DNA of 64,000 nucleotides from Rheinheimera texasensis DSM 17496 (lineage in GTDB: Bacteria; Pseudomonadota; Gammaproteobacteria; Enterobacterales; Alteromonadaceae). Position numbers and translations under genes: made by a program. This document shows positions 753 to 13,048 of this stretch, piece after piece (the first letter of the stretch is position 1; the number at the start of each line of letters is the position of its first letter). The stretch covers positions 248,001 through 312,000 of the forward strand of contig NZ_JONU01000007.1 in assembly GCF_000711985.1 (NCBI RefSeq), written 5' to 3'. The notes beneath the pieces were generated by a model. That model made no database searches. It saw nothing but the letters and a program-made list of their open reading frames with translations, and was not told the origin of the DNA.

Positions 753-1496
753 TTATTGCTCTGACAATAGCTCTGGTTCTGTAAATTCAAACTCAATTAA
801 TTGGTAGTTTGAGCCGATTTTTTCCAGTTTATACCGTCCATGGACACCGCGACCGTAACAGCGACCTCTAATGATCTCAAATGATGTTTCAACTGAGGCT
901 TTGACTCGAACTTTGTCGAAATGACAATTGAAAATCGGATCGGGATTAATAATGAACGACAGATCACTGAGCTGGAACAACTCTGCAATGCCTTGACCAA
1001 CAAGCGGTGGCTCGGAGAAAAGCTGAGACCTAGCGACGATCGTGTGGTCGTAATCTGACAGTGTCACGGCATCACTCCCCAGAGGGAGACTGTATGGATT
1101 ATCCAGATTTTTAATACATGTCATCACTTGCTTAAAAGCTGGTTTGAAGATTGGTTTTTGCCCATCGTTAATTTGACGAACGTAGTTGTTATAATCGGAC
1201 TCCAATTTAAGTTGGCTTTTTTCAAGCTGCGCTTTGACGACCTCAAGTTCATCAACCTTAAAAAGAATGTCTAGCTGTGAATCCTCGGAGTAATTCGTTT
1301 GCGCACAGATTTTCAGAGTTCCATCGCCATCGCTGAAAACAAACAACTGGATGCCATTTACATTATTGTTATTTAGCAAATTCAGGTACAGATTTTCGGT
1401 CGTGATTACCTGTTCAACGAGCTTTTTAAATTCCTTCAAATTTATAACACCGGCTGTCCAAAATTGCTTTATGTCAAAACTGCAGAGCGTTTGCAT
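753..1496 (-). CDS. hypothetical protein (247 aa)
   Basis: The start is the ATG at 1496 because it follows GAGGAGAGACAAA, a strong ribosome binding site; the frame stays open 21 codons further upstream. The N-terminus is MQTLCSFDIKQFW. A mostly charged, possibly helical stretch lies near residues 75-110 (KVDELEVVKAQLEKSQ). The C-terminal third is rich in short beta-like segments. No signal peptide, membrane segment or known motif is seen and I do not recognise the family. It is an island gene, reading in the same direction as the partial gene to its left, from which it is separated by about 190 bases. Confidence 0.65.
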   Translation of the reverse strand: MQTLCSFDIKQFWTAGVINLKEFKKLVEQVITTENLYLNLLNNNNVNGIQLFVFSDGDGTLKICAQTNYSEDSQLDILFKVDELEVVKAQLEKSQLKLESDYNNYVRQINDGQKPIFKPAFKQVMTCIKNLDNPYSLPLGSDAVTLSDYDHTIVARSQLFSEPPLVGQGIAELFQLSDLSFIINPDPIFNCHFDKVRVKASVETSFEIIRGRCYGRGVHGRYKLEKIGSNYQLIEFEFTEPELLSEQ

Positions 1497-1926: not shown

Positions 1927-4900
1927 TCAGTAGGAACTATCGGACAACTTAATAACCAAACTGGCGACAAAGAGCTGGTCCGACACTTGTGTGTGCTCGC
2001 GATAAAAGTGCCCCGACTCACCTTTTTCAGTTAGCAAACCTTTTTTCAATTCATGCTGCGCTTCGCTGGCATAGCGCAGTCCGAGCTTGTTGATGTCCTC
2101 TACTGACTCGAGTTTTGATGCCGTAAAAAAATATCCAAGTTTGCCGTGGTAGGACTCAATAACCAAATTTGCAGCTGCCAGAAGCTGCGATTCGTTCTGC
2201 TTTGATAAATGCTGTAAAAGCTTTGGCAGCGTGATTGCTGTCACTGCTTTTTTTACACGACGATGCAGATGTCGGTTCGCTCGAAGTTCGCCGTCTGGTG
2301 TGATGAGATCGCACGGTGCGCTGCTTTCTCGATTTCGAAATAGGGAAAAAAGCTGCTGAATCATGACATGGTCAATGAATTTTTCAGGATTGGCAGATAA
2401 AACCAGCTTTCGCAACTCGCTAAGCTGCATCAACCATTGCTCATAGATGTTACTGCGCCTGTTTTTTGCACTGAGCGCAGCATCGCTGCGGTTTTGCAGG
2501 CGCAGTTGTTGTGGTAGTTGCCATCGATTAGTAAGCGTGCGTTGCATCATTGTGATCGCTGCCAGATACGGGTAACGGGACACCGCCTTTCTGCCGGCGA
2601 CTTGAGTTATCTCCAACCAGGTTGCATATGTTCTTTGGTCGACATGTCTATATTGGTCGTGATAAATCGTTTGTTGTTCGAGCTGAAACAGCGACATTTC
2701 GTGCACATAATGCGTAACCGTAGTAAATGGCGTGCTGTGGCCGATGACCAAACTGACGGTATGGAGAAACTTGAAAGCTTGATAAGTCTGCGTACTACCG
2801 GTGGTGATTTGTAGCCATTTCTCCATAAAAGCGGCTGGCGCTTGCCGACACCATGCGCTGACTTCCGGATACATCAAACTATGTTCTTTGCAAACAGCCA
2901 ACCAGCAGAGGTGGCTTGCGAACGAATGTCTGCAATCGTAAAGCCTGCTCGTCGGATCTTCCGTCGTGAGGATAAGTGCCTCGGTCACGCGCGCACAGTA
3001 TTGTGCAAATGCACTATCAGAAAGATGAAACACTCTGCCGCGCGCATCATCATATTCACGCTTGGCTATATCAGTGATAGATTGAAGGATCTGAGACTCT
3101 TGGTTGTCAAGTAGCAAGCCCTTTGGGATCCGCCGATTGGCATTGATGGATTTAAGACGATAGAAATGGTTACTGCTGATATAAAGGAGGCCATCATCGG
3201 AACACAGGTCTTGCAACAAACGATACTTGATTTCCCCACGGCGCAAGCCTGTGCGGTACGACAGCACTAAAATGGCGGCCTGAATGAGTTGCTCATGCTC
3301 GGTTGCATATGGATCTGCCAACAATAAATGAAGCGCACACTGGTATTCAGATTCCGTGATGATATTTGCATACGGCTGTGCCTCGTCACCATTGATATTC
3401 GGTTCGATGTCTTTCCAGCTCACATGCGCAAGATAAAAGTGCTTTTCGACAGTTCGATGTAAATCGCGCAACATGTCGGCATGACGGCCACGTGTTTTCA
3501 AATCACGACTATCCAGAACGGCGATGTAAAAATCTTCAAGTTCGTCTTCATCGAGCTCAAAGACCGCTTGCTCCTGCGCAACATCAAGGTAAGGGGTGCA
3601 AGTCTTCGAAAAATACGTTGCCATCGTACGGATGCTAATGGAATCGCGGTTTTTGCCAGGCCGTTTGCCGACATCGGTCATTAATATCAACACGGCGACG
3701 GCCGCATCAGATAGATGAGAAGACGCCTGTAGCAAATCGGACATCGCCGTACTTTTCGCGCCAACAAAGCTCTGCCAAAGCTTTGGAACCACTGTCTTTA
3801 TGGTGATTCCTTCCCTCCTTAGTTGCAATTGAGATCGAACGTTTTTCATGAAGCGATTAAAAAAAGTACGCTCCAAAGATGGCTGCGCGGCTCGACTTTT
3901 TTTGCGCTGCGCATGGTGCGCAGACTGTTGTGGCTTTTCAAGAACAACTGGTCGATCACTCATAACCTGATGCGTCAGCAGCCGAGCCAACGCGGATGGT
4001 GCTAACGGTTTACTGTGAAGCGCATTGATCCGAAACGAGCGGAGCAATCCCGGTTCTTTGGCTTGGACATCATAAAAAGCCAGCCATTTTGTCAGCGTGT
4101 TGATGGAACTCAAAGCCGATGCTGGAATGCCGATGCCTGCGAGTATTTTTGTGACATAACGAATGAATTTGGCTTCAGAAAATGTTTGCTCAGTAAATTC
4201 CGGATATCGGTATATCAGCCCTACCGTCAAAGCATCTAAATAAATCCGCTTTTTGCAGTTTTTGTCATCGAAATCAAAAAAGTGCAGCCCGAAGAGCGTG
4301 GAGCGATTGCGTTGTAGCGCTACAACAAAATTAGTGTCCTCCATATGCTGTGCACTTTGTACCAGCATACTGAGTACGACTTCATAAAGCGCATGCTCTA
4401 GTTTGAGTCCTTCACACAACGTAACGATGCGTTTTGAAACAAAGCGTCGAAGCTCTAACACCCTGCGACTTTCGCTAAAATAACGGACATCTAGAGCGGT
4501 TTGTGGTTCATAAAGCGGCATCCGCCAGGTTTGCGCTGCCGGCTCGTCGCCATCTTTTTGATATCGCTCCAGTTTTCGATTAATCAATTGCATGCACGCC
4601 GCGGAATCTTCGCGATGAGCGAGCTTTAGGGCTTGCTCAATGGCAAAGCTAATAAACGCGTCGGTTTTATCGAGAATGGTTTCACCTTCGTCGAGCGTTT
4701 TACTGAATTTGGTAAACAAATCCCGAGCCCAACCAAGACGTTCTCTAAACGCCATCCTTTTTACCTGCAGGGATGGTGGTAGATAACCTTCACTTGTTTT
4801 CATCACCAGATTTGCAGGCAAGCCTCGTTGCGAATCACTTTTGAACACCTCGATAGCCAACGGTTCGATTGCTTGATTGAGCAGAGTATTGCAACGGCTG

Positions 4901-7116
4901 ATATCCGACAGACACAAACTCGATGTAAAGTGCAGTGGATGCTCACCCGCACCGATGTGACCAATGAGCCAGTTGATACGATCACCACCATCAAACTCAG
5001 AGAGCCTCGAACATAAGCGATGGCGAAAAAAATTAAGCGGTAAAATGAGCTGTTCCGCAGCGAGATAACGAACTAAATCGTCAGAGGTAATCGCTCGAGC
5101 GCTACCGTTTTTGATGACACTCAGAAACGGTACATCTAATGCTGCGGTTTGCCAATTTGATTTTGGGCCTAAGTGCTCTTTTAGTGCCCTGTCCTTAAAG
5201 CATCCAGCAAGACGGCGTGCTGATTTGCCGTACTCAACGAGTGCAGCAAAAGCAACGTCGGTGAGTGGCACAAAGCGGATCGCACCATCATCATACTGGA
5301 TTTTATCGGCCAGCAGCAGGAGCTTTAAATCTGGCTGGATGGCGGCGGGTTCAAATTGAAATTCAGTGCGGGTGCGGTGACCGGTGGATGCCAGTAAGAT
5401 GAGTGTCGTGTAATAGGCAAGTTCGTTCAAAAAAGTGGTAGCGCCGACTTCACTGTTTACATCCGCCGACAGGCTTTTTAGTTTTTGGTACTTGGTCTTA
5501 AAAAATTGTGCTAGGGCGTCATCATTTAACGCCAGATGACTACCGGTAAATCCGGTTGCTGATACTAATCGCATGGAGCCAGGCGATAAACCGAGGCGGA
5601 TGATGGTCTCTGCATAAGTTGACTGCAAGGTCGAGACATCGATACTTTTATAATAAAGAGGCGTCGGTGTGATGTACTCGGTCGTCGAAAACAGCAGCGC
5701 CGAGAATCCAGGATCTGATTTCAGTGCAACTTGCTGAAAAAGGCTGGAACGTACCTGTGCAAAGCTTGTGCGTCTTGGTACCACCGCCATGATATCCGTG
5801 AGCCGCGCTAACACGTCTTCTTCAGTTACTTTACAACGCTTCAAGATATCATTGAGCGTTGTGGGCGTCTTCGCAATGCTGCTGATGACTCGGATAAGAA
5901 TGGCCGGCATCGGTAAGTCAACCATCTGCTGATGTTCAAAAAGATATCTGCTTGGCAACTCGGGCTTGACTGCTTTTGGCATCTCGATACTTTGACGACG
6001 CCAAATGCCAAGTGACCAATCAATCCCCTCTTTTGCAGCTGGCAACTGCCCACTTATCGAAATCGCTAAGAGTTGTTCAAATTGGCGCGCCGTTAACAAC
6101 ATCAGCAATAAACAACATGCAGTGACGAGCTTGGACTGTTGACGTGACTGCAGATCTGATACGACACCAGCGATGAACATGTCGAGTTCAGCCTGAGTAA
6201 ACACATTAGAGCGAAGGGATAGCAACATGCGCTCCTGAATGCGAAGCCGACTCCCGTAGATGAGCGATTGCTCAGCGGACTCATAGCTAACAGGATGCTG
6301 CGGATCCGCTTGATACTCGAAGATTTCATCAATCCGCTCGTCTTCCTCGTCACTTTGGGAAGTGGTTACACGAACTTGTGCGATTTGATTGCCTGGTAAT
6401 GCACTACTTGGTTCGGCAAATAAATTGCGCTCAGAGAGAACATGGCTTTTTTCAGGGGCGCTGTGTGAGCGGACCTGCAGCACTGCTGATCTTTGTGGTT
6501 TGGCTCGACTTGCGGGTAGCTGCTCTTCGGCTATCCAGCTAATAAACTGCTTTTGAAAGTCCCATAGTTTTTTATTCTGTGAGGCTAATAGCTCAACGAA
6601 TGATTGTTTTTCGAGGTAAATCTCATCAGCAACGTAATTATGCCGGATCACTTTTTCAAAGCTTTGTCGGGCATCGGCGGCCATATTGCCTAACGTCGTT
6701 GCTGAGGATTGTTCAGTCGCCAATAAAGTTAGTGAAAGCCGCAGTGTATAAATTTTGAGGACGGCAAAGATATCCGAAAACAAATCACCACTTGCAGACT
6801 CACTGAGAAATTGTGCCGTTAGTGGGTATTTAGTGACATTGTCTCCCAAGCTCCTCAGCTGACCATGATTCTCGCGAAGCGCTGCGACCAGAGCGTTTAG
6901 GATTGACAATTCCTGCTCATAACGAGGCTCGACAATCAACCAATGAAACTTTCGTGCGCGTTCATATTCGTCGACAAGTTTCAAAGCGACGGCATACAAA
7001 TGAAAGTAGCTGGAAGGAAGGCGTAGCGCCTTTATAAAGGTCAGATGCGCATTGGTATCCAGTCCGTTCGCATGGCAGTACGCAATGACGCACTGAATTT
7101 TGGTGTTTTCTTCCAT
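1927..7116 (-). CDS. giant protein with two tyrosine-recombinase-like domains
   Basis: The product is about 1,729 residues from the ATG at 7116 (MEENTKIQCVIAY). A GTG at 7218, with AAGGG a few bases upstream, is an alternative start but would add a hydrophobic segment unusual for a DNA enzyme. The C-terminal third has the landmarks of a tyrosine recombinase: TGLRRGE near residue 1290 (first catalytic Arg), YDCRHSFAS near 1395 (second Arg, with Tyr where HxxR normally has His), and GHSTPFTTVTHYVH near 1458-1471 with the candidate nucleophile Tyr at about 1469. A second, degenerate copy lies in the middle: TGHRTRTE near 580, FFRHRLCSR near 697 and GHIGAGEHPLHFTS near 717, where Phe stands at the Tyr position. 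Canonical integrases are 300-450 residues, so this is several times larger. Seen: the motifs and length. Inferred: a DNA strand-exchange or DNA-binding role, perhaps moving this island or part of it. Confidence 0.75.
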   Translation of the reverse strand: MEENTKIQCVIAYCHANGLDTNAHLTFIKALRLPSSYFHLYAVALKLVDEYERARKFHWLIVEPRYEQELSILNALVAALRENHGQLRSLGDNVTKYPLTAQFLSESASGDLFSDIFAVLKIYTLRLSLTLLATEQSSATTLGNMAADARQSFEKVIRHNYVADEIYLEKQSFVELLASQNKKLWDFQKQFISWIAEEQLPASRAKPQRSAVLQVRSHSAPEKSHVLSERNLFAEPSSALPGNQIAQVRVTTSQSDEEDERIDEIFEYQADPQHPVSYESAEQSLIYGSRLRIQERMLLSLRSNVFTQAELDMFIAGVVSDLQSRQQSKLVTACCLLLMLLTARQFEQLLAISISGQLPAAKEGIDWSLGIWRRQSIEMPKAVKPELPSRYLFEHQQMVDLPMPAILIRVISSIAKTPTTLNDILKRCKVTEEDVLARLTDIMAVVPRRTSFAQVRSSLFQQVALKSDPGFSALLFSTTEYITPTPLYYKSIDVSTLQSTYAETIIRLGLSPGSMRLVSATGFTGSHLALNDDALAQFFKTKYQKLKSLSADVNSEVGATTFLNELAYYTTLILLASTGHRTRTEFQFEPAAIQPDLKLLLLADKIQYDDGAIRFVPLTDVAFAALVEYGKSARRLAGCFKDRALKEHLGPKSNWQTAALDVPFLSVIKNGSARAITSDDLVRYLAAEQLILPLNFFRHRLCSRLSEFDGGDRINWLIGHIGAGEHPLHFTSSLCLSDISRCNTLLNQAIEPLAIEVFKSDSQRGLPANLVMKTSEGYLPPSLQVKRMAFRERLGWARDLFTKFSKTLDEGETILDKTDAFISFAIEQALKLAHREDSAACMQLINRKLERYQKDGDEPAAQTWRMPLYEPQTALDVRYFSESRRVLELRRFVSKRIVTLCEGLKLEHALYEVVLSMLVQSAQHMEDTNFVVALQRNRSTLFGLHFFDFDDKNCKKRIYLDALTVGLIYRYPEFTEQTFSEAKFIRYVTKILAGIGIPASALSSINTLTKWLAFYDVQAKEPGLLRSFRINALHSKPLAPSALARLLTHQVMSDRPVVLEKPQQSAHHAQRKKSRAAQPSLERTFFNRFMKNVRSQLQLRREGITIKTVVPKLWQSFVGAKSTAMSDLLQASSHLSDAAVAVLILMTDVGKRPGKNRDSISIRTMATYFSKTCTPYLDVAQEQAVFELDEDELEDFYIAVLDSRDLKTRGRHADMLRDLHRTVEKHFYLAHVSWKDIEPNINGDEAQPYANIITESEYQCALHLLLADPYATEHEQLIQAAILVLSYRTGLRRGEIKYRLLQDLCSDDGLLYISSNHFYRLKSINANRRIPKGLLLDNQESQILQSITDIAKREYDDARGRVFHLSDSAFAQYCARVTEALILTTEDPTSRLYDCRHSFASHLCWLAVCKEHSLMYPEVSAWCRQAPAAFMEKWLQITTGSTQTYQAFKFLHTVSLVIGHSTPFTTVTHYVHEMSLFQLEQQTIYHDQYRHVDQRTYATWLEITQVAGRKAVSRYPYLAAITMMQRTLTNRWQLPQQLRLQNRSDAALSAKNRRSNIYEQWLMQLSELRKLVLSANPEKFIDHVMIQQLFSLFRNRESSAPCDLITPDGELRANRHLHRRVKKAVTAITLPKLLQHLSKQNESQLLAAANLVIESYHGKLGYFFTASKLESVEDINKLGLRYASEAQHELKKGLLTEKGESGHFYREHTQVSDQLFVASLVIKLSDSSY

Positions 7117-10490: not shown

Positions 10491-11684
10491 TTACAGTGAT
10501 GGGCCAAGAGTGGTTGTCAGTAACTTTTCAAAGGCAGAGCCGTCATGGCGTGTTAAGTTAGGGACAAAACGCGAATAGGTTTTAAACAACATTTCAGTCG
10601 TGGAATGCCCCATTTGTTTGGCGATCCACTCAGGCGACTCCCCTGCTGCTAACCATAAAGTCGCGGCGGTATGGCGAGTCTGGTAAGGCCGGCGTTTCAG
10701 AAGTCCTAAGCGCGTCAGCATTGGATACCAGACGCGTTTAGTGACATTGTTGTGCTCAAGCGGCTTACCGTCTCGATTGCAAAACACATAATTAGAAAGG
10801 CTACCCGTTGCGCGATATTGCCGACGTAGGGCGTCGACAACGGGTCCAATCATCTTGATATCGCGCTGGGAATGGTCGTTTTTGGTGTAATCTTCTTCGC
10901 CGGCGACGATGGTTTCGCGCACCATGATCAACCCGCGATTAAAATCAACGTAACTCCATTTCAAGCCATCGATTTCCCCCGTTCGCATGCCAGTGAAAAA
11001 ACGAACAATGTAATAGTTGCGATAGTCCGGCCTGACCTTGTCCAAAATCAGGTTTACCTCTTCTAGTGAAAACGGCTGAACATCTGATTTGGGCACTTTG
11101 AGTGGTTTGATCCGGGTGTAAGGGGTGTTAAAGTTGAACCGGTCGGCGGCTTCATCAAAGATCCGGCTTAACGGACACATGATTTTGTTTATCCGGTTGT
11201 TCGTCAGTGCCTCTTTATTGGTTCGGCCTGGTACTTTGGCGAGTGTTGACCGAAATTTCAGTAAATCTGCACGGGTGATGTCGCCGACATTTTTTCCTTC
11301 AAATGCCGGCAGGAAGTATTTGTCCAGTAGGCCGCGAATACTGGTCCGATACGACGGCCGCCACTGGACGACATTTTCTTCGAACCACTCTTCCACGAAA
11401 ATGCTAAATAGCGGTGTGTTACTGATCTGGACTTGCGCTTGTGTCTCTAATACTTCCTGCTCCAGTTCGTTCAGACGTTTTAAGAAAGGGCTTTCAGGAA
11501 AATGCTTCGCGTAGTTGAAGGTGTTGGTATGAATTTCCGCTTCAATTTGCAGAAGTTGTTTCTCCAGCAGCTTCCGGTTGCCTTTATTGTCGAGCAAAGT
11601 GGTTTGCTCCCGGCAACGACGGCCTTGAAACTTAAAATCAAAATAGAGCCGCCCGGTTTCGGGACGAACTGAGATTCTACCCAT
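10491..11684 (-). CDS. int: tyrosine recombinase / island integrase
   Basis: The 397-residue product fits the canonical integrase size. An N-terminal arm-binding domain (MGRISVRPETGRLYFDFKFQ) is of the kind called DUF3596/Arm_DNA_bind. A SAM-like core-binding domain lies at about 85-190. The catalytic domain shows FTGMRTGEIDGLKW (first Arg), RPYQTRHTAAT (second Arg, with Tyr in the HxxR His position) and MGHSTTEMLFKTYSRF (His and nucleophile Tyr). GGAGGTCTGTC precedes the ATG. The gene overlaps the excisionase gene by 8 bases and sits about 700 bases from a tRNA-fMet 3'-end remnant. By established integrase biology, this enzyme is expected to insert the island into a tRNA-fMet gene. Confidence 0.95.
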   Translation of the reverse strand: MGRISVRPETGRLYFDFKFQGRRCREQTTLLDNKGNRKLLEKQLLQIEAEIHTNTFNYAKHFPESPFLKRLNELEQEVLETQAQVQISNTPLFSIFVEEWFEENVVQWRPSYRTSIRGLLDKYFLPAFEGKNVGDITRADLLKFRSTLAKVPGRTNKEALTNNRINKIMCPLSRIFDEAADRFNFNTPYTRIKPLKVPKSDVQPFSLEEVNLILDKVRPDYRNYYIVRFFTGMRTGEIDGLKWSYVDFNRGLIMVRETIVAGEEDYTKNDHSQRDIKMIGPVVDALRRQYRATGSLSNYVFCNRDGKPLEHNNVTKRVWYPMLTRLGLLKRRPYQTRHTAATLWLAAGESPEWIAKQMGHSTTEMLFKTYSRFVPNLTRHDGSAFEKLLTTTLGPSL

Positions 11685-11910
11685 GACAGACCTCCGAATC
11701 TTCTGTCATCATGCCGATGCTATCGTGGGTAGAGCTTAACCAGTCCGCCTCAATCGCTTCCCAAATAAACAGCAATTTGCGCCGGCCAAAAGGACGAATG
11801 TAATGGCGGCCTTCAAGCAGATAGGCATCCACTAGTACATTGCGAATGGAGCGAGCATCATAGTGAATGCGCGCTGAGAGTTGCTCCGTCGTTAAGTAAG
11901 TTCGAGTCAT
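11677..11910 (-). CDS. excisionase-like DNA-binding protein
   Basis: The product has 77 residues from the ATG at 11910; an earlier ATG at 11916 abuts the AGAGGAA binding site and is less likely. The sequence YLTTEQLSARIHYDARSIRN followed by EGRHYIRPFGRRKLLFIWEA fits the helix-turn-helix/winged fold of small excisionase-type proteins that sit upstream of integrases of this class. It overlaps the integrase start by 8 bases, which implies translational coupling. The expected role is recombination directionality, and possibly repression of its own promoter. Confidence 0.85.
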   Translation of the reverse strand: MTRTYLTTEQLSARIHYDARSIRNVLVDAYLLEGRHYIRPFGRRKLLFIWEAIEADWLSSTHDSIGMMTEDSEVCHG

Positions 11911-11970
11911 TGTCATTTCCTCTGTTTATGCCACCATGCTGCGACACAGAAATCACGTTAACCCGTTTTC

Positions 11971-12393: not shown

Positions 12394-12422
12394 CTCATAA
12401 CCCGAAGCTCCCGCAACCAACT
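12394..12422 (+). repeat. tRNA-fMet 3'-part remnant, candidate attachment site
   Basis: CTCATAACCCGAAG (12394-12407) followed directly by CTCCCGCAACCAACT (12408-12422) repeats two blocks of the intact tRNA-fMet gene just downstream (12507-12520 and 12540-12554), with 19 bases between them missing. It includes the encoded CCA end. This is the expected signature of the island's attachment site at the end of a tRNA gene, here with an internal deletion. Confidence 0.7.
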
Positions 12423-12474: not shown

Positions 12475-12544
<70 letters not shown>

Positions 12545-12551
<7 letters not shown>

Positions 12552-13048
12552 ACTTAAGAACCAGCATCAAGCTGGTTTTTTTGTACCTGCGATTTGCTGT
12601 TTTAAGCAAAGACACATATCAGAACACGACGACAGTCGTCGGTTCGCTCTTCAAAACCCCGGCGGCCCCCGCAACCAACTTAAGAACCAGCATCAAGCTG
12701 GTTTTTTTGTACCTGCGATTTGCTGTTTTAAGCAAAGACACATATCAGAACACGACGACAGTCGTCGGTTCGCTCTTCAAAACCCCGGCGGCCCCCGCAA
12801 CCAACTTAAGAACCAGCATCAAGCTGGTTTTTTTGTATCTGAGATTTGGTGTTTTAAGCAAAGACACATATCAGAACACGACGACAGTCGTCGGTTCGCT
12901 CTTTAAAACCCCGGCGGCTCCCGCAACCAACTTAAGAACCAGCATCAAGCTGGTTTTTTTGTACCTGCGATTTGGTGTTTTAAGCAAAGACACATACCAG
13001 AACACGACGACAGTCGTCGGTTCGCTCTGCAAAACCTCTTGTACTTCC
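12545..13048 (+). repeat. four 126-bp tandem repeats with degenerate tRNA ends and terminators
   Basis: The word GCAACCAACTTAAG recurs at 12545, 12671, 12797 and 12923, an exact 126-base period. The first three units are nearly identical and the fourth decays at its 3' end. Each unit holds the tRNA CCA end, the AACCAGC/GCTGGTT terminator, a spacer that includes TTTTAAGCAAAGACACATA, and a degenerate T-arm/acceptor block starting GTCGTCGGTTCG. Because 126 is divisible by three, the array creates an apparent 172-codon repetitive frame that I do not believe is a gene. The likely origin is unequal exchange in a tandem tRNA-fMet array. Confidence 0.9.
12559..12583 (+). terminator. Rho-independent terminator of tRNA-fMet
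   Basis: AACCAGC-ATCAA-GCTGGTT followed by a run of T. The same hairpin is copied in each of the 126-bp repeats that follow. Confidence 0.9.

Follow-up and report, generated by a model that had tools for sequence, protein, structure and literature searches.

The islands known to carry several tyrosine recombinases (YRs) are the closest described counterparts of the locus reported here, which lies in a 64,000-nucleotide stretch of Rheinheimera texasensis DSM 17496 (contig NZ_JONU01000007.1, positions 248,001 to 312,000; hereafter the window) and centres on a gene for a protein of 1,729 amino acids (aa). The Gamma-mobile-trio (GMT; GmtXYZ), a system cited in PMC12715929, is reportedly a recombinase module of three genes on islands that carry defence cargo, and our locus resembles it in both respects. 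SE elements (IntA-Tfp-IntB-Srap) combine an ordinary integrase, a large active YR, a nucleophile-less protein of YR fold and a small protein, with the module at the element end (PMC10214605), a composition and placement that recur here. GInt islands (ginABCD) are alike by description, in that several YRs and a small protein are jointly required (PMC5385486), and their GinC is reported to lack the catalytic tyrosine (PMC10214605). The accessible part of the description of I55-like tRNA/tmRNA integrase-AlpA islands (PMC12595487) likewise includes a tyrosine integrase with AlpA, a tRNA-type site, defence cargo and no recognised transfer genes, and that part mentions no giant recombinase of the type found here. 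We show below that the 1,729-aa protein derives from the fusion of two recombinase genes that usually stand apart, here named Y and Z. On balance we think it probable that these form a conserved recombination module of islands inserted at tRNA anticodon loops, binding island DNA as a Y+Z unit and serving a second strand-exchange step beside the island integrase.

The fused gene (window 1927..7116, minus strand) is an intact, frameshift-free open reading frame with an ATG start and homologues. Of 47 related loci that encode a Y-type domain, 31 have Y and then Z as adjacent separate genes, and in nearly every relative the two are either neighbours, usually overlapping by a few bases, or a single fused gene. 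A small gene that we name X (~155-213 aa) usually lies 5' of split Y. Stand-alone Y proteins measure ~740-860 aa, their counterpart in the window protein being residues 1-790 (4747..7116, minus strand); Z proteins measure ~1,000-1,200 aa and fused forms ~1,700-1,950 aa, with a few shorter or broken, which bears out an earlier sequence-only reading of this gene as having a giant layout far from the norm. In broad outline the tree of Y matches that of Z, and the fused forms, including that of the window, fall mostly in or near one tree group; a separate fusion, at locus L098, has retained X. Homology between the two halves is remote: blastp aligned them at E 0.10, and hhalign matched the Y profile to that of Z at E 5e-6. 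Because the two segments are separate genes in most relatives and only profiles link the halves, they represent two gene products and not a recent internal duplication, as had been proposed from the sequence alone.

The same reading had recognised YR landmarks twice, in the middle of the protein and at its C-terminus, and both residue sets do coincide with those columns that are best conserved across large families of homologues, beyond what chance would produce. The C-terminal set lies in the Z catalytic domain (residues 1138-1489; window 2650..3705, minus strand) and comprises R1292 (in GLRRGE), K1322, Y1393xxR1396 (in YDCRH, with R1396 and H1397), H1460 (in GH) and Y1470 (GHSTPFTTVTHY). Among homologues with a residue at the respective position, the signature R-K-[HY]xxR-H-Y is kept almost without exception (R 51/51, K 50/51, R 49/49, H 49/50, Y 49/49). 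From its residues, Z is apparently a large and competent tyrosine recombinase. Its dN/dS was 0.09-0.25 in sufficiently diverged pairs, one plasmid pair having Z sequences so nearly identical that the ratio was unusable.

The middle set belongs to a YR catalytic domain of Y that we call Yb (residues 540-762; window 4831..5499, minus strand), and consists of R581 (in TGHR), K605, N695-xx-R698-H699 and H720 (in GH), followed by F730 (GHIGAGEHPLHF). The pocket R581/K605/R614/R698/H720 is essentially invariant (R581, K605 and R614 each in 47/47, R698 in 46/46 and H720 in 45/45), while the first His of the signature is Asn in most homologues. No conserved Tyr follows GH720 in the Y homologue alignment, so that a nucleophile is missing from this domain. 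The window sequence does have Phe730 in the register of the catalytic Tyr, as had been pointed out, but it is the sole Phe in that column, for which 45 homologues have a residue, and Arg is the commonest there; the adjacent column is mostly Tyr, Phe or His, interchanging between close relatives. The argument built on Phe730 therefore fails, since the residue is not conserved, and we rejected it as a conserved mark of a dead site. The description of this half as a dead, decayed copy holds as far as the nucleophilic Tyr behind the pocket is concerned, but not for decay: the Y half is constrained, because its pocket is invariant and its dN/dS is 0.13-0.22, and purifying selection acts on X, Y and Z alike. 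Y is most likely a recombinase-fold partner that has kept a phosphate-binding catalytic pocket with no nucleophile in the same domain, and the near-complete catalytic set of the supposedly dead half is suggestive of a functional DNA-cutting machine with several parts, not of a copy in decay.

Y could instead be purely structural or DNA-binding, with cutting performed by Z and the integrase only, a variant of the favoured view that we regard as quite possible, if a little short of probable. The missing Tyr of Yb fits this variant, for which SE elements with their Tfp and GInts with their GinC offer precedents (PMC10214605, PMC5385486). Against it, Tfp lacks catalytic residues whereas those of the Y pocket are invariant, and a domain upstream of Yb contains an invariant Tyr of its own. 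In a 34-sequence Y alignment, Y489 is invariant together with R581, K605, R614, R698 and H720, and it is present in 47/47 homologues. It lies in a degenerate YR-like domain, Ya (residues 300-535; window 5512..6219, minus strand), whose remote similarity to YRs is suggestive.

Structural comparison gave the recombinase fold for the Z half, whose AlphaFold model matched the integron integrase 2a3v (Foldseek E 1.3e-5) as well as XerH, Cre and XerA; Z-half profiles also fit recombinases, with a weak match to Pfam Phage_integrase. For the Y half, the best match in the Protein Data Bank (PDB) was XerD (probability 0.96, E 0.029, on a model with pLDDT 52). When the Y profile was compared with solved structures, the stretch upstream of the pocket domain aligned with XerD and archaeal proteins of the XerA type, in their C-terminal part, and Tyr489 fell on their catalytic Tyr. 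Ya alone gave weak PDB matches (E ~0.04), again to XerA-type proteins, and no match to the window integrase in a profile comparison. Ya and Yb aligned over 173 columns with a score of 30.8; 40 block-shuffled controls reached 23.1 at most, and reversed profiles ~11. In Flp-type recombinases the pocket of one unit is completed by the Tyr of another, and a similar arrangement may be proposed for Ya and Yb, to which Flp would be related only remotely in sequence and with the difference that both units of Y would share one chain. This complementary-site idea is suggestive. A split, Flp-like site in Y is conceivable because Ya carries a Tyr489 invariant in 47/47, and Y would then be alive, with Ya giving Tyr489 in trans to the Yb pocket (R581, K605, R698, H720), and with Z included one protein would hold three recombinase domains with two active sites between them; this we consider speculative and rather unlikely.

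The genomic setting ties the module to islands inserted in tRNA genes. A displaced tRNA fragment marks the end of such an island (compare Islander, PMC4383910), and the location of the window gene in an island, as the sequence-only reading had it, is borne out: the island spans ~77 kb, from an intact tRNA-fMet at one end (G000 C5:183093-183169) to a displaced, attR-like remnant at the other (window 12394..12422, plus strand), in which an anticodon-loop piece of tRNA-fMet is joined to the tRNA 3' end. The next intact tRNA-fMet copy (12475..12551, plus strand) lies outside. A tRNA 3' half, severed at the anticodon loop, precedes Y by 0.2-1 kb in ~16 loci, on the strand opposite to the operon; in four further loci, the window among them, the distance is 2.6-5.3 kb, and only a single such piece was found downstream of the module. 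The fragments derive from tRNA-fMet, -Asp, -Val, -Arg(CCG) and -Gly(TCC), as called by eye from the anticodon. Y-Z modules thus sit just inside one island end, beside the tRNA 3' half, as is clear in an island of ~112 kb (G360), where one end has both an intact tRNA-Asp and the integrase, and the opposite, fragment-bearing end has X-Y-Z. A 10.4-kb block running from X-Y-Z to the integrase gene is 94% identical in two genomes with different flanks (L026/L028); we rejected it as a complete element, no bounding direct repeats having been found. This placement bears on the idea that Y-Z is island cargo for defence or regulation, in which recombinase folds would sense foreign or replicating DNA. 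McrBC-like, WYL-regulator, HipAB and HsdM genes do occur nearby on islands that are rich in defence genes, and Y has no nucleophile in cis; the set place of Y-Z at the island end, not shuffled among cargo, the invariance of the catalytic residues, including the Z Tyr, and the absence of a PADLOC match nevertheless make this decidedly improbable. The earlier suggestion that the protein has left recombination for DNA sensing found no support either, the Z active site being complete in nearly every alignable homologue.

A family of ~390-aa integrases accompanies the module: of 18 genomes that bear a module and were checked for it, 16 had a member. The window member is a 397-aa arm-binding tyrosine integrase (10491..11684, minus strand). 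The integrase tree splits by the tRNA used and the Y-Z tree does not follow the tRNA; since the target tracks the integrase tree, the ~390-aa integrase most likely sets the insertion site, with Y-Z as its partner, and we rejected Y-Z as the tRNA-choosing integrase. The favoured reading of Y and Z as a recombination module would then operate as follows. The tRNA site is most likely selected and cleaved by the integrase. Y-Z, which is encoded close to an island end, probably binds the DNA of the island as an obligate Y+Z unit, presumably at that end; a pseudo-dimer acting on DNA, as had been suggested from the sequence, is plausible. Y-Z would perform or control a second strand exchange, for example in excision, directionality or processing of the island circle, and the fusion would make Y+Z covalent in the window protein, fixing a 1:1 stoichiometry. 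The most likely role of Y-Z is therefore that of an accessory recombinase of these islands. They differ from SE elements in that the integrase is encoded apart from Y-Z and in that the target is the tRNA anticodon loop; we rejected SE membership, as the SE proteins of pAQU1 are not specifically similar to Y or the integrase and the match between Z and IntA is that of YRs in general.

Several observations weigh against this reading. The AlphaFold models have low confidence (mean pLDDT 52). In the window island, Y-Z is separated from the island end by the integrase and an AlpA-like gene. A draw of 150 genomes of the family contained 21 integrase-positive ones, 10 of which had a module by protein search and two more by profile, so that about half have no detected Y-Z. 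L094 belongs to the split clade and L087 to the fused clade, yet the two have tRNA-Val as their target and integrases that are sisters in the tree; because they share these despite their different Y-Z groups, Y-Z does not set the site. Finally, 188 Acinetobacter plasmids carry X-Y-Z (most of the block) with no obvious need for this integrase. The occurrence on such diverse plasmids, the lack of an integrase near L034/L037, the complete Z active site and the three copies in the source genome would suit a Y-Z (or X-Y-Z) that is an independent mobile element or hitchhiker, repeatedly landing by the fragment end of islands and on plasmids with its own recombinase and site. We nonetheless consider such an element unlikely, as neither exact borders of Y-Z nor a target duplication belonging to it could be found, its position and orientation are fixed relative to the tRNA fragment, and homology between L026 and L028 continues without a gap across the tRNA fragment, X-Y-Z and the integrase.

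Relatives were found by whole-genome protein search in 13/296 genomes at the level of the order, 25/299 of the family and 11/369 of the class, and only by this route: the full-length protein had no match in phage, plasmid and genome-contig collections, and relatives are absent from phages and almost absent from viral contigs. Pfam, NCBIfam, PADLOC and PHROGs hold no specific family for the protein; no NCBIfam model matched X, Y, Z or the fusion, GmtY (441 positions) being the one GMT model confirmed by name in that library. Literature text searches, with most subscription papers outside their reach, found no description of a Y-Z module. Besides the window fusion, the source genome holds two relatives as separate gene pairs, in X-Y-Z trios of opposite orientation ~33 kb apart (C4:597576-604232 and 637000-643600; L017 and L019); an integrase of the same family lies between them and another at 705 kb. 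The inspected Acinetobacter plasmids, of different replicon types, have X-Y-Z beside HipAB-Fic (L117 10956-21127, L118 5957-16126).

Other features of these loci were recorded alongside. In the window, the integrase gene adjoins a gene for a 79-aa protein (11677..11916, minus strand) that resembles AlpA-like cluster c1 and has no Pfam match. A 247-aa gene lies immediately 3' of Y-Z (753..1496, minus strand), a place held in about nine related loci by a ~250-aa gene of the c10 family (W); no link between the two was found. By the island end (window 12537-13036), the tRNA-fMet 3' end and terminator are repeated in tandem as four copies of 126 bp, and comparable arrays occur near the island end at L079 (97 bp, five copies) and L145 (91 bp, three copies), which are perhaps scars of repeated insertion. 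Tandem insertions are suggested at L087, where the module is preceded by a pair of almost identical tRNA-Val 3' fragments separated by 3.5 kb. McrB-/McrC-like, WYL-type regulator and RmuC-like genes, assigned by eye from translations, are found in the island to the left of the window gene (L021 5502-8794). An HD-domain protein with an OB-fold-like start (L023 13890-14756 and cluster c3) overlaps the integrase gene in several islands, and a CRISPR-like array with a ~73-bp period (L102 12742-14384) adjoins a distant fused Y-Z gene.

Multi-recombinase islands such as GInt, SE and GMT are poorly understood because the reason for keeping several recombinases, one of them nucleophile-less, is unclear. 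The family described here is widespread and pairs a nucleophile-less partner that has an invariant pocket with an active one, to which it is sometimes covalently joined. With an invariant pocket and occasional fusion, stoichiometry, partner choice and active-site sharing therefore become testable by point mutants of one polypeptide. As Y-Z marks one end of large tRNA-anticodon islands, it may also aid in delimiting these islands and their cargo.
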